DNA from: Lineus longissimus
Taxonomy: Eukaryota; Nemertea; Pilidiophora; Heteronemertea; Lineidae
Assembly (NCBI RefSeq): GCF_910592395.1
Contig: NC_088323.1
Coordinates: 4,464,001-4,528,000, forward strand
Length of the DNA stretch: 64,000 nt
Reading direction: 5' to 3'
A program made the position numbers and the translations under genes. Under the pieces are notes generated by a model that saw nothing but the letters and a program-made list of their open reading frames with translations, was not told the DNA's origin and did no database searches. Below are positions 7,880-34,400 of the stretch, one piece after another. Numbering within the stretch: position 1 is the first letter of the stretch; each line of letters opens with the position of its first letter.

Positions 7880-9955
7880 TTAGATAACAATTTCACCCAT
7901 CTCACTGAAGCCAAACTGCTCATCACCACTGAATGCCAGGAAATCTTTCAGTCTTGTCGGGACCGGTAGACGGCCTATCTTTGCTAGCTGTGTACGTCGA
8001 TGTTGCTTGATGCACTTTCTTATTGTGCAGCGGCACAGATCCTGCAGGAGTACTGGCTGGGAGGTCAGGTCGAGGAACTGAGAGATGAATGCTGCATGGT
8101 CTGCAGCAGCTTTTGGCGAGTCGGGCTCCAATCCTGATGTAAGCGCAATTACCTGGGAACTGTCCACACGAAAGACACATCGCATCAACAAATGGATACA
8201 ATACGTATCCCGGTGCTTTATGATCTCATCAAGCAGAACCCTACCGGCTTTTCTAAGGCTGCCGCAGCCTTCTTGAATCAAACAGGTAAAGTAGTAGTAA
8301 TTCTCTCTGTAGACTTTAGCAAGCAGTTTACCCTCGTCTTTTTCAAGACAATCGAGATCACAACCGTATTTGATCAGGAAATCTAGGGTACTATACATGG
8401 AACTTGCAATACCACTTGTGAACACAAACATGAATGGGCTATAGCCATTGGAATCTTTTTGTTCCAAGTACATCGGACATTTTTCAATGAGGTATTTTAC
8501 AACATGGAGTTGGCTTGATATACACGCTGCATGAAGTGGGCGGTGTGGTTCTTTCATCACACCAAATCTCGAGAATAATTTCTTGACGAACTCCAACTTT
8601 CCCTCCCGGGCCGCCACTTCTAAGGGCGTCAATCCCTGATCACCTCGTATGGTGACGTCAGCTCCATAATCAAGCAAAAGGTCAAATACATCAAGGTCAT
8701 CACTTTTCAATGCCATATGAAGTGAGCAAGAGAGATTGATGTCCGCATCAAAAGACAACAGTAACTTGACGAGACCACTGGTGGCAGGGCTACCGTGGCA
8801 ACAAGCGAGACTTAGTGGTTGGTTGTTGTCTCGATCAAAAACATGCACATCAGCACCATTCTCTAACAACAGCTTAGCAATACCGTAATCACCAGAACAG
8901 CATGCAAAATGTAATGGCGTCCACTTTTCCAATTTCGTAATGACGTTCACGTCAGGTTTCTTACAGGAATATTCCAGAAGGTGCTGCACCATACCGAACT
9001 GGTTGAGAAACGTAGCGATGTGAAGCGCAGAGGTTGCATCGTCATCAGTCACATTAATATCCGCCCCAAGATTGAGAAGTTTGTCGACTAATTTTGGTTC
9101 ACCACTAAAACAGGTACAATGGAGGGGGGTCCGCCCTTTCATATCCGCTGCATTAAGATCCATGCCCTTCTCCAGCAGTTTTCCAACTCGGCTTTCATCT
9201 GCTACAAAGCACGCTAAATGCAACTGGTAACTCTTCAGACGTTCTGATTTTGCACCTTTATCGATTAATAACTTAAAAATATCTTTACTGCCAAGTCTGT
9301 ATGCAATATCAAGAGGAGTATCACCATCTTCATCTTCCGTGATGCGGGCGCCACGCTGCAGCAAGGCATCAACAAGATCAATGTGCCCAGTCTGACAGGC
9401 TCGATGTAGAGGAGTTGAACGTACGCTATTCACAACATTAACGTCTGCACCAAATGCAATCAACTTTATGATGATTGACCGCTTATCCGTCATGCAGGCA
9501 TGAAACAAGGGATTACGGCACATTGACTTGAAAACGGCTACTGGTAATCCAAGTTTATTTTTACAATGATCCAAGACGATGTCCACTATTTCTTCATTTC
9601 CAAAATAACAGGCACTATCCAGAAGGCTTGTACAAGACTGTGAATCCTCCGCAGCTCCTCTTTCTAAGAGTAACTCCAAAATTGAGGGTGAACTCGCCAC
9701 TTGAGACTGAAGGTAGGAGAGACCTAATTTGGCATCTGCTCCATATTGCAATAACACTTGGACAACTTTGAACTTCTGTTGACGGATGGCAGAGTAAAGT
9801 GGGTTCTGTCGGGTACGTTGGCAGGAGGCGTTCACGCTCGCTCCCTTGGATAGACAGCTCTCAGCTAACACACAGTTACCGACATGACAGGCATAGTTCA
9901 GTCCGTCATCAAGGAATCGCTGTCTGGAACCCATGTTTCTCTCAGGACTGGACAT
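7880..9955 (-). CDS. Ankyrin-repeat and SOCS-box (ASB-like) protein, single coding exon
   Basis: One uninterrupted ORF of 691 aa from ATG 9955. It begins MSSPERNMGSRQRFLDDG and is filled with about 15 ankyrin repeats, e.g. TPLHRACQTGHIDLVDALL, TPLHCTCFSGEPKLVDKLL, TPLHFACCSGDYGIAKLLL and TPLEVAAREGKLEFVKKLF. It ends in a SOCS box: BC-box-like LQDLCRCTIRKCI, then the LPVPTRLKDFL Cul5-box-like stretch around residues 660-673, and an 18-residue tail. ASB proteins use the SOCS box to recruit Elongin B/C and Cullin-5, with ankyrin repeats as substrate receptor. The lack of introns in the coding region contrasts with every split neighbour. The sequence before the ATG (ctattgtccag|catg) could be a splice acceptor, implying a 5' UTR intron. 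If that sequence is instead retained in the mRNA, an upstream ATG opens a 14-codon uORF overlapping the start. I cannot assign a particular ASB orthologue. Confidence 0.92.
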   Translation of the reverse strand: MSSPERNMGSRQRFLDDGLNYACHVGNCVLAESCLSKGASVNASCQRTRQNPLYSAIRQQKFKVVQVLLQYGADAKLGLSYLQSQVASSPSILELLLERGAAEDSQSCTSLLDSACYFGNEEIVDIVLDHCKNKLGLPVAVFKSMCRNPLFHACMTDKRSIIIKLIAFGADVNVVNSVRSTPLHRACQTGHIDLVDALLQRGARITEDEDGDTPLDIAYRLGSKDIFKLLIDKGAKSERLKSYQLHLACFVADESRVGKLLEKGMDLNAADMKGRTPLHCTCFSGEPKLVDKLLNLGADINVTDDDATSALHIATFLNQFGMVQHLLEYSCKKPDVNVITKLEKWTPLHFACCSGDYGIAKLLLENGADVHVFDRDNNQPLSLACCHGSPATSGLVKLLLSFDADINLSCSLHMALKSDDLDVFDLLLDYGADVTIRGDQGLTPLEVAAREGKLEFVKKLFSRFGVMKEPHRPLHAACISSQLHVVKYLIEKCPMYLEQKDSNGYSPFMFVFTSGIASSMYSTLDFLIKYGCDLDCLEKDEGKLLAKVYRENYYYFTCLIQEGCGSLRKAGRVLLDEIIKHRDTYCIHLLMRCVFRVDSSQVIALTSGLEPDSPKAAADHAAFISQFLDLTSQPVLLQDLCRCTIRKCIKQHRRTQLAKIGRLPVPTRLKDFLAFSGDEQFGFSEMGEIVI

Positions 9956-10088
9956 GCTGGACAATAGAGATCAGCTCTTCCTCCATGTTCCCTGAGAGGC
10001 CATTGTTTGTCTGGAAAGAATATATATTAAGGACATTATTTACTTTTTAGCATGGTTTTTAACTGAATCTGTAGAGAGTCAAGAAAGA

Positions 10089-12824: not shown

Positions 12825-13014
12825 TAGGCCTAATCTCATGCACTTTTGGGCATTGGCATTGCCTATTGGGATCTGACAGGATGCGCCAGTAAAGCTACTG
12901 GTCTCCATACGATAGTTGTAGGTCTACATGTTTTGTGATAATGATTCTGCTTTCATAATTCATGGTTTAAAAAAAATGTATTCTTACTTGCAGTGTAAGT
13001 AACTTTCAGCCAGG

Positions 13015-16000
13015 ATGAGTGCCAGACCACGACCTGTGACAGCAGCAAGCTACAAACCTAAACACGAGAGTACACCCATTAGAAGTCGCGCCTACTCTCC
13101 TGAATCTACCGGTGATGAGACGAGATCACTCATCTCTGTACTTGATCATGATAGCATCGATGACTTGCTGGACTTGGATCTGGATGAAAAGAAATTACTG
13201 AAGACGTAAGTATACATGTAGTTTCTTGTAAAATCATCCCAAAAACTGTTTGTTTGAACAATCTGTTGTAATTTAAATTAAGTCACTTTGAAAAAATCTG
13301 TATTACCTCCTACTATTCTAATATAAGCAGACAGTTGGCACGTCAAGCAGACTGAAGCTGATGATATTTTAACCACTGACATGACTGAATACATTACAAA
13401 TGAGTAATATTTATTCATTTGCTGTTATATGTAATGTAGTTAGAAAAGCTAAAATTTTCTGTTCATTTGATTTTTCAGCCCTGAAATTGAAAACAAAGGA
13501 GAAGAATTAGCGAAAGACAATGACCAGCGTGATGGGAAGAACAAGAAGGAAATCGAGAATGAAGATAGAAGAAACAATAGTGATGACTCTGGAAGTCACA
13601 ACAGCAGAGAATGTCAGGAAAATGAAGAAAACAAAAGAAATATCAGGTAAAGTTGCAACGCTTTTGGCCATGTTGGCAAAAAATGATGTTGTACCATGTA
13701 AAATCATAGTAAAGACATATCGTCGTTGACGGCCTAGCACTTGCTAAAAATGACCTACCTTGTCACAACAGAGGTCGTTATGATGTCATATCTTGTGACA
13801 TCACATGATATGATTCATGAATGGCGGCCTACGTGGAGCAGTACAGCTCCAATCAACATGTACTTACTGAGTACTCTTTACAAATAGTCTTCTATTTGTA
13901 GCTATGGCACAGATACTTACGAATCATTTTCATCTGAGAAATCTGCACTGATGTCGCCATGGGAAAAATGGCTAGTTCAAAAAGCCAAAGAGGATAGACG
14001 AAAACAGAGAGAAAAACAGGCGGCTATAAAGAAAAAGAAAGAAGAGGAGGAAGAAAAGATGAGAATCGAGGAGGGAAAATTGCGAAAGGCGGCAGAGCAA
14101 CGGAAGGAGTGGGAGGGGAAGAAGAATATGGAAGAGAGGATAAAAAAGAAACTCGAGAAGCAGAAAGAAAAGACGGAGCAAGAGGTGAAGGAGGAAGAGA
14201 AGAGGCATGTTGAGGAGAAAGCAAAACAAAAGTGAGTTTCATTTTGTTGTGCGTGTGGTCTAAAGGCATGAATGCTCTGTCATTTCAGTTATTTGACTAT
14301 TTTCAACCCTAGCTCCAGGGCACAAGATAACCCTCGAAAGGGGTCTTTTGAGGCATGAAATTTGCAATGGTGCCCATCTTATGACAAGAGTTCACAAGGC
14401 ACTTTGGGCCTTGTGTTGAGCCCTGTGAAGGCCGCCATTTTCATACAATTTAATGTGGCTCATATGAGCTTCAGTTTGAGGATCTTTTCCTCTTTAAAGG
14501 TACAACGAATGGATGGAAGAGAAAAGGAAGCGAGAAAGAGAGCAGAAGAGGAAGGAAGAGGAAAAGAAACGGAAAGAGGAACAGCAGAAAAAGGACCGAC
14601 AGGAAAAGTGTGACAGGGTCTTTGATGAGTGGTGTGAGAAGGCGAGAGAGAGACCAAAGTCAGTGCCAAGCAGTTTCGGTTATACTTCGGGGAAACTCAC
14701 TGGTGAGTGTGTTATGATTTCTCCTTTTTTACACCTTTGGTTCATGACTCGACAGTCAACTATCCTTAAAACATTCCTCGATACCTTGATCAGCAGTCAC
14801 AAACCATAACACAAAATTATAAAACTACGTAAAAATGTTCCTTTATTTGATAAACATATAGAAAGTATAACAGAATCCTTTTTCAATACAGTATACATTT
14901 TTCAATAGAATTCTCTGGAGATACCAAAGAAATAGATAAAAAGATAAATAAAATTACTATAAAATCTTCTGAAATATTTTAGCGCCTGAACAAAAGGGTA
15001 TGTACAGTTAGTTTCTTCCGTTCAAAATTTACAGTTTTAAGTTAAAGCACTGTTTCCGTATTACTGTTTCACTGTTACTGAAATTCTGGTGTTTTCCACT
15101 GCAGCAGCAGTGAATGTTATTTATTTTATTCATCCTTTGTTCGTAATTTTGATAGCGATCTAGTCGTTGATTTCGAGATTTTCCTGAAAGCGGGAATTCC
15201 GCCTTTGCGATTTTGTTAAAATGGCAATGCAACAGACAGAATGAGTATTTGAAAAACTAAGAACTCGCTATATCAATTTTCAGAATTACACTTTTGTTCA
15301 AAGGTGCTCACACCATGATAGTGGGAGGCATCTGTGTCTTGTCCTCTTTAACCTTAACTTATATGTTACATTGAACTTTGTCCAAGAATGGCAAAGAATA
15401 AAGATTTATTCCCGATTTATCATATTTTCTATATTCCTGGATTATTAAAGTCTGTTCTCGTTATTGTTGTCCCTGTCAATCTTCCTAGCCCTCTTCAACC
15501 TGCCCTTCGGTTGCCTGGCCCTCTTCAGCCTGCCCTTCGGTTGCCTGGCCCTCTTCAACCTGCCCTTCTGCAGCTTGTTCTTCTGCAGTCTCTCCCTCAG
15601 CAGCCTGGCCTTCTCCCTCAACAGCCAGACCTTCTCCCTCCACAGCCAAGCCTTGTCCCTCTACACCCAGGCCATCTCCCTCTAAAGCCAGACCTTCTCC
15701 TTCAACAACCAAGGCTTGTCCCCCTATACCAAGGCCATCTCCCTCTTCCTCTGCAACCAAGAGGTCTTCAGGCGCTGCCAGTCTCTGTGACAGAATCTCA
15801 TGCTTGTTCTCTTCATAATAACTTGGAGGATTTTGTCTCTGAAAACGAAAATTAAGTATTCTTGTACTTTACGGTTGGCAGGCATTACGATTCGGTAACT
15901 AGGTAGATTTTTGGCACAAAAAACGACACTGAAATTAAGTAGATGTGACTAACTTCTAGAAGTAAGAACTCATTATCGATTCCCCGGCACCAACATATGC

Positions 16001-17304
16001 CAAGGAATCAAGGTTGGGAAGTGTAAAAGATTAACGAAAGCAAGAATAATGTTTCAAGTTGTCTGATTGCACCATCCAGCCATATAAACACTCAGCCATC
16101 CGTCCACAATTTTCAAATTATTTGGCATTCTACGATATCAGGACTTGTTTCTGGTATCACTGCCTCGTGAATGGGAGGGCTGATGTGTCGTTGAATACTC
16201 TCACCATGTCTAGTGCGCCCATGTCTGCTCCAGCATTTAGCAGTGTTTCCTTTAGTTTGTCATCCACTGCTAAGGCATAGTGAAGCGGGGTTCTGTCATG
16301 CTGGAAATGCAAGGACAAAATTTTATTTTCGCTCGAAAATTCATCAGTTTATTGCAATGGTTCAGCATCACCTCAGTTTACAGTCAATGGTACTTACGTT
16401 GTCTTTGAAGTGGATCAAGTATGGATAATTTTCCAGGAGATATTCCACAATTTCTTGTCTATTGTACAGAACGGCTTGGTGTAGAAAACTCCGCCCGGCA
16501 TCATCTCGGCCACAGCTTAATTCTTTTCTCCAAAGGGATTGTCTTAATTCCCTGATGGAACCTTTGAGAACCGCTTTTCTGCTTGAGAGTAGTGCATCCT
16601 GTAAGAAATTCAACAAATGTCATAGCATTCAAATCAACTCAAGTTTTGACAAAGGAGCATTAACACTGCTATGATTGAAATGTTATGTAGCAAATACTAC
16701 GCAATGTTTGACTCTAGCAGTGATCATGGTTGACGGTCTGATGTAGATTGTTTGATGCAATACATACATCTTGAAAATGCTCAATGGTGTGGCTATTCAT
16801 AGCATGAGATATTGTTGAGTACTGGTCCCACGAGCTGTCCTTCACAAACCTGCAGCGATTCTTGAATGAGAATTTCTTCCCGCCTTGGGTTTTTACCGGG
16901 CCATGAGTGCCATTTTCCAAAAATGATAAATGCATTATTTTGTGTCGAAAAGTGCCCAAGTTCTAGGATTGAAAAATTGCTTTACCTGTGCTTTACTCAT
17001 ATTCTTCCATATTCCAAAGGCGTCTTCGTCGAGCCCTGCCCCGTCTTCCCCGTATCGCTCTGTAAGGTCTGGTATCTTATTGTACCCTGTCAGCACCAGT
17101 ACCTTAATGGCGTCGGTCTTTCCTGTCTCAAACAAGCTGCACACGTATTTGTCTGAAAAGACAGAAGAGCGTTTTTTCAAAACAGCCAATTTGGGCATAG
17201 TAATACGGTGTCGGGACTAGTCACTATAAATGATCCCAACATTGTTGGTTTTTAGCTCACCTCTTAGCAGAGGTGAGCTTATCCCATACCGTGGCGTCCG
17301 TCGT

Positions 17305-17351
<47 letters not shown>

Positions 17352-20300
17352 CGTCGTCCGTTAGCAGGGCACGTTTCGTAACTGTTAGAGCTATTGAGTT
17401 GAAACTTGGTACACATGTACCCTTATGTAATGACACCTTGGAGACCAAGTTTCGGTCCGATTCGTTTCATGGTTTCGCCACCAGGGGGCCAAACGTTAAA
17501 AGTGAAAATATGCAATATCTCCCTTAATAGTAGTCGGGAAATTTTGAAAAAAATATGGTAGGTACTTCTAGCAAAGGTGCATCATATATCCTCCGGGTTT
17601 TTGATTTGACCTCCTTTTCAAGGTCACAAGAGGTCAAATGGTGTGTAAATTGGCCGTTAGGATGTAACGATGGCACGTTTCTAAACTGCAATGACTATTG
17701 ATACCAAATTTGGTACACATTTACCCCTTAGTCAGGTGATCTCAGGGACCGAAGTTTGGTCCAATATGATTCACCACTTGACCACCAGGGGGCAAAAGCC
17801 AAAAACCTTAAAAATGTGATTATTCCTGAACTTCTTGCCCGATTGCCACCAATTTGATATCATGGGTATATCTAACCACCATACAGTATATGTCACACAG
17901 GTTTTTAATTTGACCTTCTTGTCAAGTTTACAGAGGTCAAATGGCGTAAATTCGCCGTCAGGCCGTAACTATGGCACGTTTCTTAACTGCAATGACTATT
18001 GATCACAAATTAAGTACACATGTACCCCTTGGTCAGGTGATCTCAGGTACTGAAGTTTGGTGCGATCTGATTTGCCGTTTGGCCTCCAGGGAGGGGGCCA
18101 AATCCTAAATTCTTCAAAATGCTATTATTCCTAGTAATGACTTGCCCGATTGGCACCAATTTTATATCATAGGTACATCTAATTCTAACAACCATTCAAT
18201 GTGTCACCCGGGTCTTCTTTGATTTGACCTACTTTTCAAGGTCACAGAGGTCGAATGTACTGTAAATTGGCCATTTTGGGGAAATTGTAACTGCTTGGAC
18301 CTACATCAAACCTAACACTACATGACACAATACCATGCTCTTTATCCATCTTTCCTCCACATGAGGTGAGCACAATGGCCCTGGCCATTTCATTGGATAT
18401 AAAACAGCGTTCGACTTGCTCAAGACGTACCAATTGCCTCGACATGCTCTGTCCTTTCAGCCTCTTCCGCCAATTCTCTTGGTGTCTTCCCGTTTGCATC
18501 TCGCAGGCCTAAGTTGAATCCCCTCACCATGAAGCTGTCAAGGTCAAACACCTCTTGTATCACAGCGCGGTGTAGCTCCGTTTGACCATTCTCGTCCCTG
18601 ACGTTGATCGTATCGACTTTCATGAAGGCGTCCTCTTGTTCTTCCTCCTTCAAGGTGGGCATGGGAGGACCTGCAAGTAGGCTCTTCTCTCGTTGCCTGA
18701 AAGAGTGTAGAAATACTTTGAGAAACTAGTGTGAGACACATGGTTATGGTCCTTTCCAGAGAATTTGGCCGCATCACAATTGATTTTTGTAGAAAATGCC
18801 AATAGACCTTTAGGTAGAGAAAATCTGGGTATTCAGACATCATCTGCTCAAGGCAGTCAAGCTTGAACGAATTACAATAGAGAAAATAGTGACCTCTTTT
18901 CCTCTTCCTCCTGTTGTCGCCGCTCCTCCTCTGCCTGTAACTTCTGCTGTCGCTGCTCCTCCTGCAGTTTAAGGCGCTCCTCCTCACATTTCTGCTTCAT
19001 CAGGCGTTCCTGCTCTTCTTGGATGGCTTGTCTCCTCATATCCTCCTCTTGGACGCGAGCCTGAAAGTCAAGTGTCACATTTTGAAATGTTCACCTCGCA
19101 TCTAAAAATTAGGATTTCTTCTTCATAATCTCGTTGGTTTGGCACTGGTGTATTGACTCTCATTGCGGACAGGTAAATGCCATACAGCGAGCCCAATGGT
19201 CCTCTGCATTGGTCGCTAATAGTCTTGGTTCTCTTGATTCTGGCCATGTATTCATGTCAGTCCAATCAAGAGCAAACTCACCTTCCTAAGTCTTTCTTGG
19301 TTGGCAGCATACTTCTGCAGCCAATGACCCAAGAACTCAATGGGATCCCAAGGCCTCTTGTCCACGATCTCAGCCAGGGCTAGGGTCAGCGCTTCACCGA
19401 GCACACTGGCACAGTACAGGCCATCCTCTGTCTTTGGAGGTGGGATGTCCCGAACGAGGTATGGGTCAGCTTTAACTTGGCTGGGGATGGAGACTGAGCC
19501 TGTGAAAGAACAAATTATGAATTATAAAATGTGAGTCTGCCATTCATTGATTAAAGGGAAACTTGCGAAGAACTACTGTGCAGTTGAACTGTTTTATCCA
19601 CTATGTGTGTCATTCTTCATGATGCATTTAAATCAAGTTTTCTTGTACCTTGGAATTTTGGATATTGAGCCAGGCCAAGTTAGAGGAATGGACTGAAGTC
19701 AGGTCTCACCAGATTGCGAGGTCTTTTTGGACTCCCCTTGTCTACCTGAGCCAGCAGATGAGACCCTCGATCCTGCTGCTGAGCCCCTTGATGCTGCCTT
19801 CTCTGACGTCTTTGATCCGGGTCGAGATTTCTTGGATGATGGCCGCGACTTGAGGTGCTTGCGGGGCTTGACGAGGATCTGACTGAGCTTCTGACGGAAG
19901 GCTACGAGGTCTATCTCATCCTTGTGGTCAAGGTAGTATTTGGGCGTATGCTCTTTCTGGAGTTAAAGATAGGTTGACTCATGTTTTGTTGCCTCAGCTC
20001 TATTGAATGAAGTCATTACTAGTAACGAGTTGTTGCTTTTCTCAAAGAAATCTCAGCTCAGAATCAGAATTTGTCCCAAAAAAGTTGAGATACTGTATTT
20101 CGAAACTCACTGACCTGACCATTCATTTGACTGTGATCTGTCAGGACTTCCCGATGGTACAATGTACTAGATTTGAGTCATTTGAGGATCAATAACTGAA
20201 ATCATCTTGGAATTTCAACTTACGTTGTCCTCAATTTCCTCACCGGCTCCAGCGTTGACCAGTATCTGATACTTGTCACGACTGTCCGTGGTGACAGCAG

Positions 20301-23300
20301 CATAATGGAGGGGGGTACGCCCATACTAGAAGCAAAAAATCATGATGGTATCAGTCCCTTTGTTGCTGACACTGTCAGGTCATGTCACAACAAAAATTAT
20401 AAGTTGAAGTTTAGCCTGGCACTGGCAGCTTAAAACAACCCGGGTGTGCATGACTGCATGAGGTAATTCTTGATCTTGATTTAAAAACCCTCCGATACTT
20501 ACGCTATCTTTCTTGTTGATGAGCTCAGGGAAGTTCTCAACGAGGTAGTTCAGCGTATCCATCTGGTCGTAAACAATGGCCTTGTGTAGCGGGAACAGGC
20601 CCGTCTCATCACGTGCCTTCCCCACATTCTTCTTGTCGGCAAGCTGCTTCAGCAGACGAACGTTCCCATCGAATATGGCACGGTGGATGTCCTTGACTCG
20701 GTCCTGGGAAATGGAAAGGTTGGGTTTAGGCATATTGAAAGTAGAAGGCCTGAAGGTATTTGCAAAGAAAAATCGAGGACTGTATTATCTATAGGGGCCC
20801 AATATTCAGCTTCTTCACAATGGTAGGGTTGGTCTTAACAAGTATTTAGTGTTCGGTTTGGGGTCACTTCTTCCCTCACTCAGATCAACACACAACACCC
20901 TTGAAGCCCCACTTCCTAAGACTAGGTTTTGAGGTGCTCGGAGCTTGTGTTTTATCCTTGCCTCACAAAGGCTAGGCTTGGGGGTTGACTGCCAGATGCC
21001 TTGTATTGTATATCACTGGTCCTTTAGGCATTGTGGGCAAAAGTTTCTTGACCATCTCGTTATTTGAAGTCAATTCTAAGGGACAAACAGTCTGCTGCAG
21101 TAAATGTTTACCTCAAAACTCTTGATGTTATCCAGCAGGACATCAATAGCCTCTGAGTTCTGCTTGATCTGTTTCCTCTTGGATGATGATGGTCTTGGTA
21201 CCTCCCATCCGGCCAGGACAATTTCCTCCAGCTTGTCCGTGTCGCCCTCGTACATGACGCTGTCGATGAATTCGATGAAGACATCATCCAATTGCTTGTC
21301 GTCTTTCTCAAGGATTTTGTCCAAGACTGTATCACCTGAAAAATCATTTACCATGTTTACTTGTTACAAAAGCTAAGTGGTTTTTGGTACTGGAACTACT
21401 TTTGGCAATACCGTTGGGTTAATTTTGTTGGGTGTTCCAAAGGAATGGGCTTAGCTCAACCCTCCTGGTCTCGTTTTTCTGGTACAGAGATCCGCAAGTG
21501 CAATGTTTATTCCTGAGGAACGGAGTCATGAATCATGCAGACAAAAAAGAATCTTACCTTCTTCGTCCCTTTCTGCGATATCCGATCTCTTCATCAACTC
21601 CTTGATGATCCCGATCTTGCACTTCATCTCGACCGCATGTTGTAAAAATGTCCGCCCATCGGAATCTTTGAGCTTTGTGTCTGTGTCAGCATTGAGCAGG
21701 TTGACAACCTCATCCTCATCATCATTCTGCAGCGCCAGAAATAATCCTGTGGCACGAAATTTTGCCATTTCTACGAAGATATGGTTTATTGCCTGTAAAT
21801 TATAGAGTACTGAGTAAGACTCCACCCAAATTATCCTCTGAACTCTATGTTGGAAATAGTTCTAAAATTTACAAACAAAATCTCAGCTCGTCCAGTGTGA
21901 GTGGTGTAAAGAGATGTACACCAATCTCATTGAGAGTGTCATGTGTATGTTGCTAGGTCTCATGAATGACATTGGTTACCAATGTTTTCAATTGTGGTGG
22001 TTTTGTAAAGGGACGATCTCAATAGCAGAGATATGGTTGGATGATTTCGTTTGACTGGGTCCTTTGCGAGATACTTGTAATAATGAGTGATTTTCAAAAG
22101 AAAAATCTTAGTAGTTGATCGAAGATGTTGTCTTGAGAGAAGCAATCTAGGGTAAGATGTCTTGCTCAAGGACACTTGGATGAAACAGTAGTATTCGAAG
22201 AGTTAAACCGGTGACCTGATTATGACCCTGCTCTTGTCTCAAACCAGTGGCACTGATCTCAGTCAGCTCGAGCAGTTTGATGTGATCAGATACTGCTTTG
22301 AATTCATATTTCATTATCTATCGTTGACACAGTCCCCATATTCTATCCCACGGTCCACCGCAATATATCAATACCATAAAATCCTATCATATTAGCACAG
22401 CAAGTATGCTGTGTTGACCATGCAATATTGGGTAGAATTCCTGCCTATTCATCGTAAGATTTGTGGAATACAAAACTTATATCCATATTGGTAATCTATA
22501 ATGAGAACGTGACCATACAGATCAGCCTCCAGCTACGGTCAAGTACACAGGCCTGTACTGTTATTTCTGGGAGTAGTCCAATTGGCTTCCAGTCCCGACA
22601 TCCAGCAGGAAGCAGCCTGAGGCAACGACTTTCAAATGCATGTTTTTAGGGGCAGTCCAGTTGGCCTTCAGTTGCAATATCTGGCAGTGCCCTTTAACAC
22701 CTAATAGCTACAGCCTTGCAAGGGCGACTGGAAAGAGGCCCCAAGGATCCTCATCAAACAATCCATCAAAAAACAATGCAAATGCATTTGTAAATATGAT
22801 AAAGTATATTTATTCAATATAAATTCATCCTAAACAAGATCTATGACATGTTAGAAAATAGCACTTGGTCTTTTTTTTTAAACAAATCTTCCTCTAAAAA
22901 TCCATTTGAAAGTGTTTTATCACAGTTCTTTGTTAATTCCTCCACGCTTTATCCTGATCCTTGATATTCTTCCCGGCTTATTCTGCCCCGCCCTCATCAG
23001 TCTGTTCTGTGCCTTCCCCCGGTGCTTCGTCGACGCTCTCACTGACCGTCCCGTCGCCGGGAGCATCTCCATCAGCCGGGGTAGGTGGCGCCTCTTCCAC
23101 CTTCACAGTGACCTCTCCCACTTCACCTTCAGCCAGTTGCTGCAAATGGAGAAGAATGTTAAAATTTTGTCAAAAAGAGTCGTAGTGTTGTGGAATATGA
23201 TAGGGGCTTTCTGAGGAGATCCTTTCCTCTTTGACTTGAGTCTCATGTTTTGCACCAAAACCCTCACCAAATGAAGAAAATACGCTGCTTACCTGAGATG

Positions 23301-26300
23301 CTGGTGTGGCTTTCTCCTGATCATCCTCCCTTGGATCTTCATTCACCGTTGCCAGATCTGGTGGCTGCGCATACTTCTCCGCGTTTTCCCGCTCCCGTTT
23401 CATATGCTCGTCCATCTCCAGTTGCTTTTGCTCCTCCTCGAGTTGAGATTGCCGCTTCCGCACCAGTTCATCTTGTTGTTGGCGTCGTTCTGCTTCCTCT
23501 TGGCGTATTTTGGCAGCTTCAATCTCACGCCTCTTGCGCCTACGATGTTCGTTCTCTTCAGCGATTCTCTGCTTTTCAAGATCGTATTTGATTCGTCGTT
23601 GCTGTGAATGAAATACCAGATTCTGTAACTTGTGATTGTGATTTATTTCATTACAAGCAGTGTCTCCCCTGATTGTTTTGAACACGTCAAGTTGCATTAT
23701 TTTGCCCTCCCTGGGTAATTTACATCATACAATGCACCCAGATGCCTCCAAAACCTTTTAAAGTTGATGAACTATGGTCTTACCTCTTTAGCGTACTTCA
23801 TATTATTGTCGTACTTGTAGAGGTACTGTGCGAGGTATTCAACGGGGTCATGAGGTCGCTTCTGACAGATCTCTGCAAGTGCCTCCTCCAGGGCAGCACC
23901 AACGTTCTGAGCGAGGTATTTCCCATCGATGGTGCTCGGCGGCGGGACATCTTTGATTGGCACTTCTGGAATGATTGGCTCCACTGGAAGAAGAAGAAGA
24001 TGGTCAGAGAATATTTTGAAAAACCGCAGGTGTTGAGACTGCTTACTCTTTACTACTATTTACTACTTCTGACACTTGAGTAGTGTCTCTTGGCCATGAT
24101 CTCAGAGAAGGTGTACTCACATTCGAGACTGGTGAGTGACTCAACAGAGAGTTGCTTCTGTAGTGGGATCGTAGCAGCTTCATGGTCAGCCTTGATCTTG
24201 TTGGCGATGATTTTATGGAGGTCAGTCAGTCCGAGGGTTTTTACGTAATCGATGAGTGTGGTGCCATCCTCCTGGAACCAGATGATATTCGTCAGGTCAA
24301 GTAACATAAAAACCACAAGTTGCTATTATCGAGATTTTCAGGAGCACGCAACCTCCAGCCTAAGTGGTCACAAGTGAGATCAAACAAGTGATTGCTGTTG
24401 AGCGAGACATAGATCTTGTGGTGTCACCCATGATGTCACGCGATATTTCATCGCAATTGGGGCTGAAGTTTTGCAATGAACGAAACTTGCAAATCTTTTG
24501 ATCTATGTACAACTGTTTCCACTCACCCGGTTTATTTCCAAGTCTGCCCCGTCGTCTATGAAAGCTTTGGCTATGTCTTGTGCCCCTGTCCTTGCACAGA
24601 TAAACAACAGCGGGTCCACACCAAGTCCGAGAACCTTCTGGATGTCATTGAATGGAACTTCAAGGTTTCTCTCAATGTTTCTGACTCCTGGAAGTTTATA
24701 AAAGGATTTGAAATAAGAAAGTTTATTTTGAAAAATGGCAATTAGAGTGGTTGCTGTTTGAACCTAGGCATAGTAGTAGTTCTACCCATTACCCCTGACC
24801 CTCCAGCGGTTCTTCAGTGCGTATAAAACTTGACTTGGGATCTGGGCAACACGGCCAAACTGAGACTATTCACCCTAACTGAACTAAGAATATAAACTGT
24901 GGTCAAATGTAAAGACAAAGAAGAACTTAATAGGCTTACCTTGGATATCATTGTTTTCAATGCACTCGGCCATTGCATTATAATTCTGCTTCACTGTGAC
25001 CGCGGAGCCGTATTTCAAGGAGCGTTCTCTCTCGATGATGGCCTGGACGTTGTAATGGCCGGCGTCGGCGTCATCAGCATGCAGCGCCATCTCTTTCTTG
25101 TAGTCTTTGCCACTTAAATTGTTCTAGAAAAAGAAGGATCTTTTCAAATGATTTCGGCTCTCGATTCAGACATGACACTGTTCTGTTTCTTCTCTTCTGC
25201 TCTTGACAGGAGGTTAGGTAGACTGTTTTGGATCATGACATCAGCTAACTCTTTGTAATTGTTGGCATCATTGGAAGTGAGCATCGAAATATTCAGAAAA
25301 TGTATCTTACCCAATCCTTGGCATCTTCGTCTGAGCCAGCGCCAGCCAATACAGCGTACATTTCTTCTCCATCAGTCTGGGCTGCAGCATAGTGGAGGGG
25401 CAGGCGACCAAGCTGGAGACAAAGATAAACATTGTTTGAGTCTGCTGTAAAATTGCCATTCATTAATCCGATTTGTGTAAGCAAAAGGTGACTTAGAGGT
25501 TGCATAGAGGGCAAGCTCTCACTCATGTCCTCTTCGCCTGGCCCTAGCACTACCCTTCTGTGGCAGGAGTGTTTCAACAAGTAGCAGTGGTACGCCAGGC
25601 TTGACACTGGTGTCTCAAACCTGGTAGACGCAAGCTGTGGTATACTCACATTATCTTTGGCTCCGACCAGTGCCTCATACTGCCCAACTAAGTATTCCAC
25701 CACTTCCTTCTGCTCGTACAGGACGGCCTGATGCAAGATGCAGCGTCCTGACTTGTTTTTGTACGATGCAAGTTTAGGATCAGCATCTAAAATCTTCTTT
25801 ATCTCATCCAAGTTGCCTGCTTTTGCAGCTTTCAGCAAAGTTGTGACCTTGCCCTGGAAGTAGTGAAGAGTTCTTTTATCAAAAGAAAAGTTGGCAGGAT
25901 TCGGCAACACTAGAGGTGCCCAAATTGCAACAAATAAGAAAAGAAAAACTATGCACGACACAAAGTTTTTAAAATTTCATGAATTTTCATACCTGATCCT
26001 CCTTGGCCAGCTCAACCAGCTCCAAAACATCCGACAATCCTTTCTCCTCGGCCAAATCCTTCACAGTCTTCCCATCTGCCCCTATGACTTTCCACAGCCA
26101 ATCAAAGCAGCTGGCCGCCATTGCTTCTATTGTGTCTGTGCGACCGTGTGGGTTGGTGAAGATCGTATCAAGCACGTATTTCTGTAGTGCAGCAGCTTGT
26201 TCGTTGTTTCCTTGGAAGATGGCGTCATCGATTACAGTATGACCCTGGTCGTCTCTGGAATGGCAGAAAAGTTGAAGATTCTATAAACTTATCAAGGCCC

Positions 26301-29258
26301 CTTCCCATTCCCCTTCACAGAATCATATGTACATTGCTCTACAGATAGTGTAAATTGAACATGAAAGTACTTTTCAGAAGAACTCGATGGCCACTGTCAC
26401 TGCCCCTTAGTGATAGTCTACAGATTTGCCGACTTAAAATGTTGTCTCTTTTGGTTTCTGGATAAGAGGCCACAGAGCTTGCTACCATCAGTCATATGTT
26501 CCTCTCAATAAAAGTCTCACCTCTCGCAGACGTCGACACCCATTTCTAGGACTTTGATCAAATGTTCCACCGATCTGTTCTGGGCGGAATAGGCGATGGT
26601 CTGACCTCGGCTATCCTTCAAACCAAGGTCGCCTTGCTTCATCACGATCTTGGCGATGTCCTCAGCTGGTTTATTGGTGCTGTTTTCAACAGCAAATATG
26701 AGGGGTCCTGCAGGGTCGATGCCTTTGTAGAAGGTACTGAAAGGTAATATGGAAGTATTCTTGAGAAAATTGGGTCTGTTATGTCGCTTCCAGGGTTTGG
26801 CTGTTAGAACTTCTGCCCTGTCAGAACGGAACATAGTCAGTCTCGTAACTGAGCACTCAGGAAGCTTATGCTACAAACCCAAAAGGAAGCAAGAAGTTTC
26901 ATCATCATATGAATGCAAATTCACATACTACTTACTCTAGTTTTGGCGCCAAGCCTAGTAGCGTTGCGACCACGTCAGTCGCGAGGTTTCCTTGTGACAT
27001 TGCGGCAACCAGGAGAGGCATTGGACACGCCTCACCTGTCCAGTAGTCCTTGTACGCACTATCAGAAACATTTACATCAATCTTGTCGCCATGTTCTTCA
27101 AACAGTCGCTTCATGCTATCGGTATCACCAGCAAGCGTAACCTTGATGAATTCTAATGTGGGTTGAACTTGCTCGATCAAAGCTGCCAGCTCGGGGTCCT
27201 CCTCTTTCAAGGCATCTAATATATTCACCATGATCCCATCTTTCTTCACTGTTGGGATGAGGCACCAGTTTTTAAGCAGACGTTCGACTAGTGCTTTGTT
27301 TTTGGAGGCAAGAGCAGCTGGGAGACCCTGACCGTAGCCAACGAATTGATCCTTCATGCGGTCGTCAGTGACTAGATCGAGTGGTGTTTTGTCATCGTTG
27401 TTCTTGATGGTCAGGTCAGATCCGATGCGAATCAGTGCCTGTGTTAGGGGCCAGCCTGCTTCATCTCCTGAGAGGCATTTGTGAAGGGCGGTGTTCCCCT
27501 GAAATAGATAGATGAAATATAAACAAATCTGATAGTGATTCTATACAAATCTAATATTCTCTCAGAGTCCGATTGAATTTTGACAAGTTTGACAAGAAAC
27601 TGAAGACAGTACAACTCAGTACATGGAGTGGAACGTTTCTTGAAAATGTGAATTGTAACTTACCTGATTGTCTTGTGCATTGGGGTCAATTCCTTGACAC
27701 GCCAACTGATAGACAACCGGGACCAGCTTCTCCTGGTCGTTACCCTGCACGGCCGCTATACGATGGAGATAGGTGGAGCCATCGGTGTCTCTCAAGTCTG
27801 TCACACCAACTCCTTGTGGTCCGCGGAGGAAGTCGAGGGTTTTCTCGTATGTTGTGTCCGACAGAAACTCATCGGGATTAAGGAGAAAATAGAGGCTGTT
27901 TTCTTTGAATTCCATGTTGCTGTCTGCAATTGTAAAAAAATATAATTCATTAAAAATTATTTGATGACTCGGGATTGAGCCTTTGTGGTGTTGCTAGAAG
28001 CTGCAGTGATACAAATTTATACTGCATAGTCGCATAAAGACCACCGCTCGCACCCCTAGCCCCTCAAGACACTTTTATTTTCATGCCTGTTTGTTTATTC
28101 TTGTCTGATAACTTTGAATGGATTAAAATTCTTTCATCAGCTTATTGTAATCTGTTGAGACTGTATAATGAGAAGATAAAAAATATCGAATATGACACCT
28201 AGAGAACGATGAGAAAAGAGGCATATCGTGGCTCAGATAAAATCTATGCTTAAATTGGAGTTTCAACTCTCAATAGAACTCTCACACTAGCGAAAGTACA
28301 AAGAAACTACACTTACACAGCCACCCACAAGGACATTCTATGATTTCACTGCCAATTTTTACACTTTGACAGCCAACTAACTCTGAATTGCCGCTAAGTT
28401 GATACTCGGAGCCAAGCTAGGTATGATATGGTGTGGCGTACTTGTTAGGTATGGCCAAGAGTTAAAAAAGAATAAATTTTTCGGGTATCGCCTTTTATAT
28501 TATTGGTGTACATGTAGGACAATTCTCCACTTCGGTTGGCAAGGCCCTGCAGGTTATTGACTTCCATTTCCTCTCTCAGAACAGTGTTATTTCCTCAATA
28601 CTTAGGCAGATAATTTCGAAATAAGTCTCATGCTACAGAGGAAAATGCCCCTTGGTTCCCACTGGACATTGAAATCATTCAAATTGGTGTCAAATTCAAC
28701 TTTTCTGTAAAAAAATCTGATTGTTTGATTCAAAAACAAATGTTAAGGACCTACCTGTTTATGTGTCCCTTCCTGTGTACCCTACTCCACTGTGCTTACG
28801 CTAGGCCTACATTGACTAAACAGTTCCCTAGTTACCGTCTATGCCAGAGATTAAAGCTAAGCTGTTTGAGTTACCCAACCATTTCGCTTAGGCCCGTTGT
28901 TGGAACTCATTAAACCCTTTACAATAGGGCCTATTACTGGTCATCAAATCTCAGTAGTTAAACCCTCTGATATCTAGGCCTGGTATCCAAACAAGCTCTG
29001 TTCTAAATAGCTAGGCCTGTCAAAGTGCATGTCTGTACAATCTAACATGCCGTTCAAATAATTATAAACATGTTTTTAATCATGGGAAACTCCCTTCTCC
29101 TACTTGTCACAGGTTACTACGATCGCGCTGCGTACCCCGCCCCAGGTTTCTACAATCCGATACCGTGGCATCACCCTCCCGTCCCAAGAGTCAAGTCGGA
29201 GAAGAAGAAACCAGTACGACCTAAAAACAAACGATGGGATCCTTCAAAATACTTCTGA
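13015..29258 (+). CDS. CCDC34: CCDC34 (coiled-coil protein, cilium/flagellum-associated)
   Basis: Five coding exons: 13015-13205, 13479-13646, 13902-14231, 14500-14702 and 29113-29258. Phases match at every junction (2,2,2,1), giving 345 aa. The family signature is SPWEKWLVQKAKEDR, then a long Glu/Lys/Arg coiled coil (about residues 130-235) with the repeated YNEWMEEK / FDEWCEKAR units, and SFGYTSGKLTG. The last exon supplies the conserved tail YYDRAAYPAPGFYNPIPW followed by a basic end (KKKPVRPKNKRWDPSKYF). Human CCDC34 shows the same order, including GYANGKLTGFYSG and PAFYNPIPW, and is required for sperm flagella. The first 120 residues are acidic, Ser-rich and unconserved. The fourth intron is 14.4 kb and contains two complete minus-strand genes. 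ATTAAA at 29796 is a candidate poly(A) signal. The joining of exon 4 to exon 5 across the nested genes rests on phase and on the family sequence crossing the junction. Confidence 0.93.
14703..15404. other. Start of the large CCDC34 intron, nothing recognised
   Basis: About 700 bp of AT-rich sequence between CCDC34 exon 4 and the poly(A) signal of nested gene B. No conserved ORF or clear repeat seen. Confidence 0.5.
15405..15410 (-). terminator. Poly(A) signal of nested gene B
   Basis: Minus-strand AATAAA 75 bp beyond the gene B stop codon. Confidence 0.65.
15485..21768 (-). CDS. Nested gene B: ankyrin / Dpy-30 / coiled-coil / ankyrin protein
   Basis: Twelve exons, right to left: 21558-21768, 21112-21335, 20503-20703, 20224-20325, 19710-19956, 19282-19499, 18894-19060, 18431-18696, 16986-17152, 16398-16598, 16205-16300 and 15485-15838. 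All phases agree, giving 817 aa from ATG MAKFRATG. Order: ankyrin-like repeats (residues 5-246, e.g. RTPLHYAA); a basic Ser-rich linker; a Dpy-30 motif (about 354-401) with core KRPWDPIEFLGHWLQKY; a coiled coil (about 402-470); a second ankyrin block (about 480-700, RSFLHQAV, RTPLHYAL); and an acidic tail of EGQAxEG/VEGEG repeats. Dpy-30 motifs form dimeric four-helix docking bundles and are frequent in axonemal proteins. The exon 7 donor (AGAG|GTCACT) is weak but is the one that keeps frame. Paralogous to gene A upstream; lies wholly within a CCDC34 intron. I do not recognise a named orthologue. Confidence 0.88.
17254..18390. mobile_element. Non-autonomous element with (CGT)n tract and three ~300-bp internal repeats
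   Basis: Sits in a gene B intron. The left end is a perfect 11-bp-stem hairpin (agctcacctct/agaggtgagct, 17254-17279) followed by a (CGT)n-type microsatellite (about 17293-17361). Three degenerate units of about 300 bp then start near 17368, 17672 and 17972, each carrying ggcacgttt, gtacaca, ccaccaggg/cctccaggg and tcaaggtcac/aagtttacagaggtc motifs. The right end near 18365-18390 repeats gaggtgagc and a ggccctggcc mini-palindrome. Both strands give arginine-type ORFs across the CGT tract, which are artefacts. Confidence 0.7.
22135..22275. repeat. SINE-like fragment between genes A and B
   Basis: Contains tcttgctcaaggacac, then ttcgaagagttaaaccggtgacc and accagtggcactgatctcag. This arrangement resembles tRNA-like SINE consensus seen in many invertebrate genomes. 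A shorter match (tcttgctcaaggact) is at about 41629. Degraded; no intact promoter boxes. Confidence 0.4.
22809..22814 (-). terminator. Poly(A) signal of nested gene A
   Basis: Minus-strand AATAAA about 165 bp beyond the gene A stop codon. It separates genes A and B as distinct transcription units. Confidence 0.6.
22978..27915 (-). CDS. Nested gene A: ankyrin-repeat / Dpy-30 / coiled-coil protein
   Basis: Twelve coding exons, right to left: 27664-27915, 26936-27498, 26521-26736, 25993-26254, 25650-25853, 25311-25412, 24940-25123, 24527-24687, 24121-24271, 23784-23983, 23293-23601 and 22978-23139. Phases agree throughout, giving 921 aa. It starts MEFKENSLYF after a splice acceptor (ttgcag|acagcaacATG), so there is a 5' UTR intron. 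Residues about 40-695 are divergent ankyrin repeats (GSTYLHRIAA, GNTALHKCL, GRLPLHYAAA). A Dpy-30 motif follows at about 718-765 with core KRPHDPVEYLAQYLYKY, then a highly charged coiled coil (about 766-850, EEAERRQQQDELVRKRQ) and an acidic Pro/Gly/Glu tail ending EGGAE. The protein is probably a structural or docking component, plausibly axonemal, by analogy with other Dpy-30 proteins; this is inference. Tandem paralogue of gene B. I cannot assign a vertebrate orthologue. Confidence 0.88.
27930..29112. promoter_or_regulatory. Upstream region of nested gene A, last part of the CCDC34 intron
   Basis: About 1.2 kb without coding potential. It should hold the promoter and 5' UTR exon of gene A, because an acceptor precedes its ATG. 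I looked for an RFX X-box (GTTRCC-RGYAAC type) and saw no good match. Confidence 0.4.
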
Positions 29259-29271
29259 TCACATGTTATTT

Positions 29272-29445
29272 GATGGACTTTCAATGACAGCTTAGATACA
29301 GATGGACTTTCAATGACAACTTAGATACAGATGGACTTTCAATGACAACTTAGATACAGATGGACTTTCAATGACATCTTAGATACAGATGGACTTTCAA
29401 TGACAACTTCGATACAGATGGACTTTCAATGACAATTTAAATTTA
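29272..29445 (+). repeat. 29-bp tandem repeat, six units
   Basis: Unit gatggactttcaatgacaac plus ttagataca, starting at 29272 and repeated every 29 bp to 29445. The last copy diverges. It begins 14 bp after the CCDC34 stop codon, so it forms part of the 3' UTR. Confidence 0.9.
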
Positions 29446-29795: not shown

Positions 29796-29801
29796 ATTAA
29801 A
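29796..29801 (+). terminator. Candidate poly(A) signal of CCDC34
   Basis: ATTAAA about 540 bp after the stop codon. It is the first plausible signal beyond the 29-bp repeat that I noticed. Confidence 0.4.
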
Positions 29802-31406: not shown

Positions 31407-34400
31407 TCATTTCTTCGTTTTGAACCTCTTGAAGAGTGGATGTAACGTCTTCGTGCTTTGTGCTTTTGTTACTTCCATATAGATGGCGTCATCTGCTCCC
31501 GACATGGAACTCATGTTACCAATACGACGTATGACCTGAAAGAAAGACGAACCTTGTATAATTGTTGATCTGAAATTACATCACTTAGAAGATGACAATG
31601 GATTGCTCATAAACAATGTACACTGTAGTAACTTGACTTCAAAATAACTAAAATAGAAACATTTTAAAAGAACCTCATTGGTTTACTTGGCTTGCTTATG
31701 AATTTCTGCTTTTAGACAGGAATGGCTAACTCATGCACCTACCTTTGAAACGGTCTTTGACTGTGGAGGACCAGCAGGATCTTTTTCCTCCTCAGCTTCA
31801 TCCTCATTGGCGGCAAGGACTTTCTGCAGCAGCTGGGCTTGCTCCTCTTTGGTTGAAAAAGCAAGGTCTTCCTGAAAAAACGATGAAACAGAACCCAGTT
31901 GATAATTTGTATCCTTAAGTCATGGTTAGTGATAAGGACTCATTCAAATACCAGTACCAAACACTCATCAATATATCTTCTGACCTTGGGCAAGTCACTT
32001 CACCTTGATGGCCTTGTCTTCAGAACAAACCATGATACTTTGTACCTAGTATCTGGTACAAAGTAAGAATAATCCAATATGTTCTTGTCAATACATATGC
32101 ATGGGCAAGCAAACAAGATCACGTACCTCCTCAATTCCAGCCAGCTTCGTGATAACCTTGTAACTGTATCCCTGGTTGGCAAGGAAACGCTGTCGCTTGG
32201 TGGCATAGTGCACTTCCATCGTATCCTGGGAGACGAGGGAGTAGAAGAATGCGTTATATTCTTCGGCCACAGCACCTGTTAAAAGAAAAAATACATTGTT
32301 TTTAACTCAACTGTGGTATTCTCATAGGAACAGTCTAACCCCTCCCTGTTTAAAAATAAACTTGAGGGAAATTGATTATTTCTGATGTTTTTCATCAAGT
32401 TCATTTGAACGAACATTTTAGTTTCATATACCGGTACTCAACGTACTTGCCTCTGGCAAATCGAACAAGAGAATCCAACCAACCTTTCTTAGCCCTGAGG
32501 ATCCTGCCAAGTCTCTGTGCCTCCTGACGTCTGGAGCCACCATGGGATGAGATCTGGATCAAGACACTCGCCTCCGGCAAATCAAACGAGTTATCGGCAA
32601 CCTTTGAGACGAATATTGTGTTGACTTTTGGGTTGTGTTGGAAGTTCTGAAGAATATTCAGCCTTTCTCCTTGTGAGGTTGGACCATACAAGTAGGGCCT
32701 GCAAGAAACATTTGGTGAGGTTAAGAAATGTTTACGTATGTTCAAACTATCCAAAGCTCTTACTTATAATGAAAGGCTCGGGCTTGGGTGAGCTGCTCAC
32801 ATCACTTACTTGTTCATCCTTGTTGCATAAGCTTTCAATGCGAACACATTGTCAGAGAACACGATGATTTTGTCGTTTCTTCTCTCATGGAAGCGAATTA
32901 AGAACTGGCACGCTCGGAACTTGTTCGGGTTGTTCACGTACAGCAACTGAAAATTGAGCATAAGTTTTCATAGATTCCTCCTGGGTACTGAACAAGTCCA
33001 TCGCTCTTCTCTCTACTACTCCTGGATCCAGCTCCATTCATTAGAAACAATCAAGGTTCACTATGTGTGGAGACACCAGCTATAGTTGAAAGGACATGGA
33101 GATGAAACAATGCTGGCCTAATCCAGAATCATCCATTCCAACCCCTGGTTACAAATTTCAATAGCTTGTGGGTGTGCGTGCATGAAAACAGTGCCTTGTT
33201 TTTCAGAGCACTCAAACCACTAGTCCCTCCATCCCAAAACACTGACCCCACTCCATACCTACCAATTTCTTCCTCGTCCGTGTGTTGAGATATTCCTGGT
33301 AGAACTCGGGCGTCATCGGACACCAAACCTCCGCACACTGCACCTTAGCAATATAGTTCTTCTTCTGCAGTTCTAGCCAGTTCGCTTCGTACAATTTTGG
33401 TCCGATGAGGAAATTCAGATCTGTAATCTTATCGTCTTCTCGAACTAGCGTTGCTGTCAGACCAAGTTTGCAGTGAGCCTGGACGATCGTTAACACACGT
33501 CGGAACATCTTAGCTGGAATTGTGTGGACCTCTGAAATGTTTACAGAATAATTCTCAAGTAATGCAACCCTGAAGATTTTCAATGTTAATTTCTAAAAAA
33601 ATCTGTGGGATTTTCAGAATAATTAACAAAAGTTTCAACTGTAAATTGCACGTGTTACTTGCAAAGTCGTGTTGAAAATGACAGTTACCGTCAAGGACAA
33701 TGAGTCCCCACTCCTGTGTCTGCATCCATTGCATGACTTGCTCAGCCTCCCAGGACCTCTTGGTCGAATGAGCAATCATCGAGTACGTGCTGATACAGAT
33801 AGAGCAGCCCATAGGCTTATCCTTGGCATCGGATGTAAACCGACAGATCATGCTGTCGTCGGCAGTTGACCACATCTTGAACTAGAAGAAAAGTAAGGAT
33901 GATATCATCGGCATGTTATCAGAATCTGAAGGAAATTCAAAAGTGATAAATGTGTAACTTGATGAGGACTGAAGTGATCAAACTCAACCAAAGACGGTAG
34001 GAAGGATAGATTAATCTGTATAATCAATCCTTGTTGGCAGTAATGGCGAATGATTGAAAGTGCAGTAATACGCTTACTGATGAAGAAAGACTATTTAAAT
34101 GACTCATGGAATGGCAAGTTCTAAGACTTCCACCACCAAAAAGTAAAAATAATTCTACCTGTGACCGCCACTGCTCGACTGCGACCCCAGACGTACACAA
34201 GCAGAGACACCTTTTCCTCACAGTGCAGGCAGCTGTCACTCCCACTAGTGTCTTGCCAGCACCTGAATAATTAGAATATAAAGATTCAAGATCTATTTCA
34301 GGACAAACAGCTTAATCTGTTGCCAACCCAGCCACCAGTCAAGATACCTTAGGAACTGTGTGTGCGTTAAAATTTCCTCGGGGAAAGAAGTCATTTTGAG

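Follow-up and report, generated by a model that had tools for sequence, protein, structure and literature searches.

Two minus-strand ankyrin/Dpy-30 genes within the last coding intron of CCDC34 in Lineus longissimus

The host gene and its last coding exon

The window, a 64,000-nucleotide stretch of chromosome 16 of the nemertean Lineus longissimus that spans C16:4464001-4528000, carries a five-exon CCDC34 gene on the plus strand whose fourth intron houses the coding regions of two further genes, referred to here as guest A and guest B, on the opposite strand (Table 1). The published genome of this species comes to 391 Mb distributed over 32 scaffolds, and its chromosome 16 measures 16.53 Mb (PMC8593623); the assembly searched here comprises 391,118,348 bases in 30 contigs. 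Because the window contains no N, the idea that the arrangement stems from a gap or from a scaffold join within the nest was rejected; a haplotype-specific rearrangement at the nest is possible.

Table 1. Features at the CCDC34 locus (window positions) and relatives of guest B elsewhere in the assembly (contig positions).
Feature	Position	Strand	Remarks
CCDC34 coding exon 1	13015-13205	+	exon model; identical in public protein P0001
CCDC34 exon 2	13479-13646	+	exon model; identical in public protein
CCDC34 exon 3	13902-14231	+	PF13904 match begins here; identical in public protein
CCDC34 exon 4	14500-14702	+	ends within Gly298 codon of GKLTG
CCDC34 intron 4	14703-29112	+	14,410 bases, GT-AG; houses both guest coding regions
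AATAAA after gene A	15405-15410	-	one of 14 minus-strand AATAAA in intron
Guest gene A (LOC135500600)	15485-21768	-	12 coding exons, 817 aa; ankyrin repeats, Dpy-30, charged coil-like stretch, ankyrin repeats
AATAAA after gene B	22809-22814	-	one of 14 minus-strand AATAAA in intron
Guest gene B	22978-27915	-	12 coding exons, 921 aa; ankyrin repeats, Dpy-30, charged coil-like stretch
CCDC34 terminal coding exon 5	29113-29258	+	YYDRAAYPAPGFYNPIPW... tail, stop; family-conserved
ERCC3/XPB neighbour	31407-35133	-	downstream of and convergent with CCDC34; both ends approximate
Relatives of B N-terminal part (L034/L035)	C4:6935974-6945912		~30% identity
Relative of B N-terminal part (L036)	C5:2476681-2477241		~30% identity

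The five CCDC34 exons (13015-29258) form a single open frame of 345 codons with GT-AG borders at all four introns. The first three introns are short (273, 255, and 268 bases), whereas the fourth spans 14,410 bases. The join across this long intron reads CTCACTG/gtgagt ... tgtcacag/GTTACTAC and splits the Gly298 codon inside the family sequence GKLTG-Y. A public L. longissimus CCDC34-like protein matches our model at all 345 residues, the join included, although the public models of both CCDC34 and guest A may derive in part from homology. A search of the 391-Mb assembly reported five CCDC34 matches (66 of 66 candidates scored), all of them at this locus and on one strand. Two further observations concern the flanks of the coding region: an acceptor-like AG is found within about 40 bases upstream of the ATG exon (12976-13014), and a short tandem repeat, with several copies of a unit of about 20-25 bases, lies directly past the stop (29270-29440).

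Residues 138-316 of the host protein match the Pfam CCDC34 profile, PF13904, at 117.6 bits (6.2e-34), well above the curated cut-off of 35 that places the protein in the CCDC34 family, and the match extends over positions 3-169 of the 169 in the profile. Swapping exon 5 for the intron read-through lowers the score to 97.5 bits and ends the match at profile position 158. Exons 4 and 5 by themselves score 80.4 bits; exon 5 preceded by the upstream intron reading and without the other exons scores 13.2 bits, below the cut-off. In an alignment of 10 sequences, namely the worm's own and 9 of the 18 other matches from the homologue search, none departs from GKLTGY, D301, or FYNPIPW across the join. 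Searches with CCDC34 returned no match among PDB sequences and no family in NCBIfam. An earlier sequence-only reading of this DNA had proposed that exon 4 joins exon 5 in frame and in phase and that GKLTG-Y crosses the junction; the open frame, the conserved join, and the identical public protein bear out both points, and splicing of exon 4 to exon 5 is thus a well-supported prediction. Assignment of exon 5 to another gene was rejected, since this is its sole reported locus, the public protein uses the exon, and it encodes conserved family sequence.

Downstream of CCDC34, the ERCC3/XPB neighbour is recognized by PF16203, which scores 53.4 bits on the open reading frame at 33212-33592, above the cut-off, and 20.7 bits on that at 31731-31919, below the cut-off of 27. 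We placed the ends of this gene by what we take to be its resemblance to ERCC3/XPB, and its presumed stop falls about 2.1 kb from that of CCDC34. Upstream of CCDC34, an ASB-like gene on the minus strand (7880-9970) consists of one long open reading frame, 696 aa between stops, that encodes ankyrin repeats together with a SOCS box.

Two minus-strand genes inside the intron

Both guest coding regions lie complete within the CCDC34 intron (14703-29112). Their spans, introns included, occupy 11,222 of its 14,410 bases (about 78%), and the coding sequence alone accounts for 5,220. The model of guest A agrees letter for letter with a public protein (P0064, LOC135500600); its donor at exon 7 (GTCACT) is weak, and the public model has the same join. 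The frame of guest B is open, with GT-AG borders at all 11 introns. No internal stop occurs in the frame used by any of the 24 guest exons, and 45 of the 48 alternative frames are closed, which argues that neither gene is a chance open reading frame. Both proteins score above the curated Pfam cut-offs for ankyrin models and for the Dpy-30 motif, PF05186. The gene identities, the strands, and the nesting of two multi-exon minus-strand coding regions had been read correctly from the sequence at the outset. The possibility that the guests are retrocopies was rejected, as each contains 11 introns. The 1,278-base intron between exons 8 and 9 of gene A holds apparent degenerate repeated units and an ACG microsatellite (17260-18300).

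For guest B, no matching public counterpart and no full-length homologue were found among proteins of 507-1,612 aa. The homologue search, in which the 7,995 candidates sharing the most words were scored, yielded 44 matches with a best identity of 36%, none of them listed with Dpy-30 and none named Lineus. When the whole of gene B was searched against PDB sequences, ankyrin-repeat chains dominated the best 60 of 286 matches. An NCBIfam search with A touched seven ankyrin-type families, all far below their cut-offs, and an Rfam scan of the window gave no match at the gathering score.

Ancestry of the guest genes

Guests A and B align with one another over three stretches, at 28% (273 residues), 38% (151), and 30% identity (233). 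They also have in common an exon pair of 67-68 and 32-34 codons with phase-0 borders, present in three copies as exons 5-6 of B, 3-4 of A, and 10-11 of A. This exon pair and the alignment together indicate that A and B are an old pair of intron-bearing ankyrin/Dpy-30 paralogues, not retrocopies. A recent tandem duplication was rejected on account of the 28-38% identity and because the first module of A groups without B in the module tree described below.

Searched against its own genome, A gave 36 matches (55 of 367 candidates scored), of which 12 mark its own locus and one the Dpy-30 motif of B; we read the remaining 23, at 23-36% identity, as generic ankyrin matches. The corresponding search with B gave 28 matches (49 of 254 candidates scored), and here the N-terminal part of the protein has relatives on contigs C4 and C5 (Table 1). 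Near the C4 relative are two ankyrin stretches that resemble the exon pair of A and B. Elsewhere, two Dpy-30 motifs lie 8 kb apart on the same strand of contig C3 (C3:18468917, L007, and C3:18477057, L011), and the first of these loci is presumably adenylate kinase 7, judging by the resemblance of its letters.

A search for homologues of A returned 66 matches. Leaving A itself aside, each of the 19 strongest is listed with both ankyrin repeats and Dpy-30; this set spans molluscs, one annelid, insects, and nematodes, plus two unnamed sources. In all 11 of the homologues examined (from molluscs, Owenia, insects, and the two unnamed sources, with no nematodes), the first ankyrin module, the Dpy-30 motif, and the second ankyrin module of A were each matched, and gene A has these elements in the same order as its homologues. 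Within the Leptinotarsa and Pieris proteins, what best matches the first module is an N-terminal copy. The nematode relatives (P0068-P0070 and P0080) match A piecewise and stop at Dpy-30, lacking a second module beyond it. The homologues from snail and abalone (P0065 and P0066), at 1,388 and 1,371 aa, carry at their N-terminus two additional A-like modules that are absent from the worm gene. Gene B departs from the order of the A family in that one module precedes its Dpy-30 motif, none was found after it, and its N-terminal part is separate; B is related to the A family but does not belong to the same subfamily. We rejected the idea that B is the N-terminal half of a longer molluscan protein, since B has a Dpy-30 motif of its own and the additional N-terminal regions of the molluscan proteins also match modules of A.

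The module tree was built from 23 modules of A, B, and 10 homologues, with Drosophila miranda left out. The first module of A joins the first modules of lophotrochozoan proteins without B (80/84, below the starred level), and its second module falls with protostome second modules (98/95, starred). Guest B stands outside the first-module group on a long branch, and the node that unites B with that group has support of 73/53. The A family is therefore older than the nemertean lineage; the age of B is less sure.

Origin and meaning of the nest

The sequence-only reading had also credited each guest with a start and a poly(A) signal of its own. For both genes an ATG and a minus-strand AATAAA (at 15410 and 22814) do lie inside the intron, although each single AATAAA is weak evidence given the 14 on that strand of the intron, and the transcription start of B was not located. 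An acceptor-like AG directly 5' of each ATG exon (27916-27930 for B and 21769-21805 for A) suggests that both guests probably have further 5' untranslated exons, and those of B could lie beyond CCDC34 exon 5. The acceptor-like AGs before the ATGs of B, A, and CCDC34 would mark introns in the 5' UTR or, possibly, sites of trans-splicing. Gene B might then be nested only in part, if its promoter and an untranslated first exon were located at CCDC34 exon 5 or past it, so that B overlapped the end of the host; we consider this doubtful but far from negligible, and it is compatible with the reading of the locus that we prefer. The sequence ttgcag/ACAGCAAC-ATG just 5' of the B start makes an upstream exon likely, and the ATG lies about 3.5 kb from the presumed ERCC3 stop, with CCDC34 exon 5 inside that gap, but the 1.2 kb of free intron between the ATG and exon 5 would leave room for a promoter and a short exon. 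The nest would be merely apparent if CCDC34 ended in intron 4 at an intronic poly(A) site and exon 29113-29258 were a relic or belonged to another transcript. Plus-strand AATAAA signals do occur in the intron at 14947, 15397, 26507, and 28471, the first two soon after exon 4, and reading past the end of exon 4 adds 34 open codons. Past the stop, no plus-strand AATAAA is found in about 29.2-31.5 kb. A truncated CCDC34 transcript is therefore possible, and such an isoform may exist beside the full-length form. As an account of the whole locus, however, an early end is very improbable, because exon 5, which encodes highly conserved sequence of the family, fits in frame and phase, has good splice sites, is used by the public protein, and has no other locus reported in the assembly, and because ATTAAA variants at 29796 and 30517 follow the stop.

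A genuine host-guest nest, in which the guests are independent and the arrangement is tolerated, is in our judgment highly probable. CCDC34 would be transcribed over some 16 kb, with splicing across the 14.4-kb intron adding the conserved exon for its C-terminus, and the two ankyrin/Dpy-30 paralogues occupy that intron on the minus strand; these elements follow from the sequence and, for the host and A, also from identity to public proteins. Since exon 5 encodes the conserved tail of the family, recruitment of a new distant exon by the host is unlikely, and the arrival of the guests in an existing intron offers the simplest account. They most likely reached it by duplication or rearrangement at the DNA level, which would have kept their introns, and each is most likely made independently of the host from its own promoter and poly(A) site. 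The nest itself is most likely tolerated and not a regulatory device, neutrality being the default.

What the three genes do bears on whether the nest might nevertheless be functional. Mutations of CCDC34 occur in some men whose sperm flagella are malformed, and the sperm of one such patient had almost no IFT20 or IFT52 (PMC9679630). The Dpy-30 fold is described as a docking and dimerization module related to that of the regulatory subunits of PKA (PMC8339350). In PDB sequence searches, the Dpy-30 region of A matched four distinct chains, every one of them from DYDC1/2 or radial spoke protein 2 (RSP2). That of B matched 16 chains, headed by DYDC1/2 and RSP2, with weaker matches to DPY30, NME5, and AK7; the guests thus match the ciliary proteins better than the chromatin protein DPY30. 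In Caenorhabditis elegans, the protein ARCP-1, which has both ankyrin repeats and a DPY-30 domain, is a binding partner of PDE-1 and contributes to its enrichment at BAG-neuron cilia (PMC6953435). These matches and the domain likeness to ARCP-1 point to the guests as likely scaffolds at cilia or flagella, in which, probably, a Dpy-30 dimer would grip an amphipathic helix while the ankyrin repeats hold cargo, much as ARCP-1 helps to keep PDE-1 at cilia. Nematodes are not known to have motile cilia, and their retention of relatives of the guests favors such a scaffold role over one confined to motility. The cellular theme that the sequence-only reading assigned to host and guests finds some support here, and a theme of the cilium is plausible.

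Coregulation of host and guests as ciliary or sperm genes, or a tuning of CCDC34 by convergent transcription of the guests, would draw on the flagellar phenotype of CCDC34, the proximity of the guest Dpy-30 regions to DYDC1/2 and RSP2, the role of ARCP-1 as a ciliary scaffold, and the intact coding frames of all three genes. We nonetheless think it improbable. The work on ARCP-1 was done in sensory neurons, not sperm (PMC6953435), embedded gene relationships are conserved in only 20-34% of cases among Drosophilidae (PMC3786989), and nesting is common, with the opposite strand as its usual form (PMC8467205). The chance is slimmer still for a long-kept ciliary nest in which two ARCP-1-like scaffolds and an IFT-linked flagellum gene are coregulated and convergent transcription balances the programs of sensory cilium and sperm flagellum. 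If the nest proved conserved, it would allow functional host-guest nesting to be tested in spiralians, from which few worked examples are known. Even a neutral, merely tolerated nest documents a double antisense arrangement in a compact locus and an ankyrin/Dpy-30 scaffold family across protostomes, whose look-alike ARCP-1 helps organize ciliary cGMP signaling.

In seven vertebrates, 4.3-8.7% of protein-coding genes belong to nested structures, and in about three quarters of the simple nests of human and mouse the genes lie on opposite strands (PMC8467205); other counts give about 6% for Drosophila melanogaster, 2.1% for C. elegans, and 0.5% for man (PMC3786989). By these published frequencies the CCDC34 nest is an expected kind of structure in its usual antisense form, and the presence of two guests, paralogous and multi-exon, within a single intron of a small gene makes it a somewhat richer case. 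In the open-licence PMC literature, we found neither CCDC34 described as a nested-gene case nor a report of nested intronic genes in Nemertea. The nest resembles that of Drosophila 2mit in intron 11 of tim2 (PMC3786989), where a complete opposite-strand coding region likewise sits in one intron and the host splices over it, but here two guests, both multi-exon and paralogous, share one intron of a 345-aa host. As a member of its family, the host protein showed nothing unusual, with PF13904 matched over positions 3-169 of 169 and the conserved GKLTG-Y...FYNPIPW tail; what sets the gene apart is a last intron of 14.4 kb that houses two genes. The guests resemble DYDC1/2 and RSP2, for which solved structures exist, along the Dpy-30 motif and into the charged stretch that follows, although the DYDC1/2 chains are only 159-177 aa long whereas the guests have 817 and 921 aa with ankyrin repeats. 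By domains, the closest characterized protein is ARCP-1 (C. elegans F34D10.6; PMC6953435), a comparison drawn from domain content. The nematode ankyrin/Dpy-30 proteins that match guest A lack its second module. The PDE-1 partner and the role in sensory neurons, not sperm, belong to the C. elegans protein (PMC6953435).
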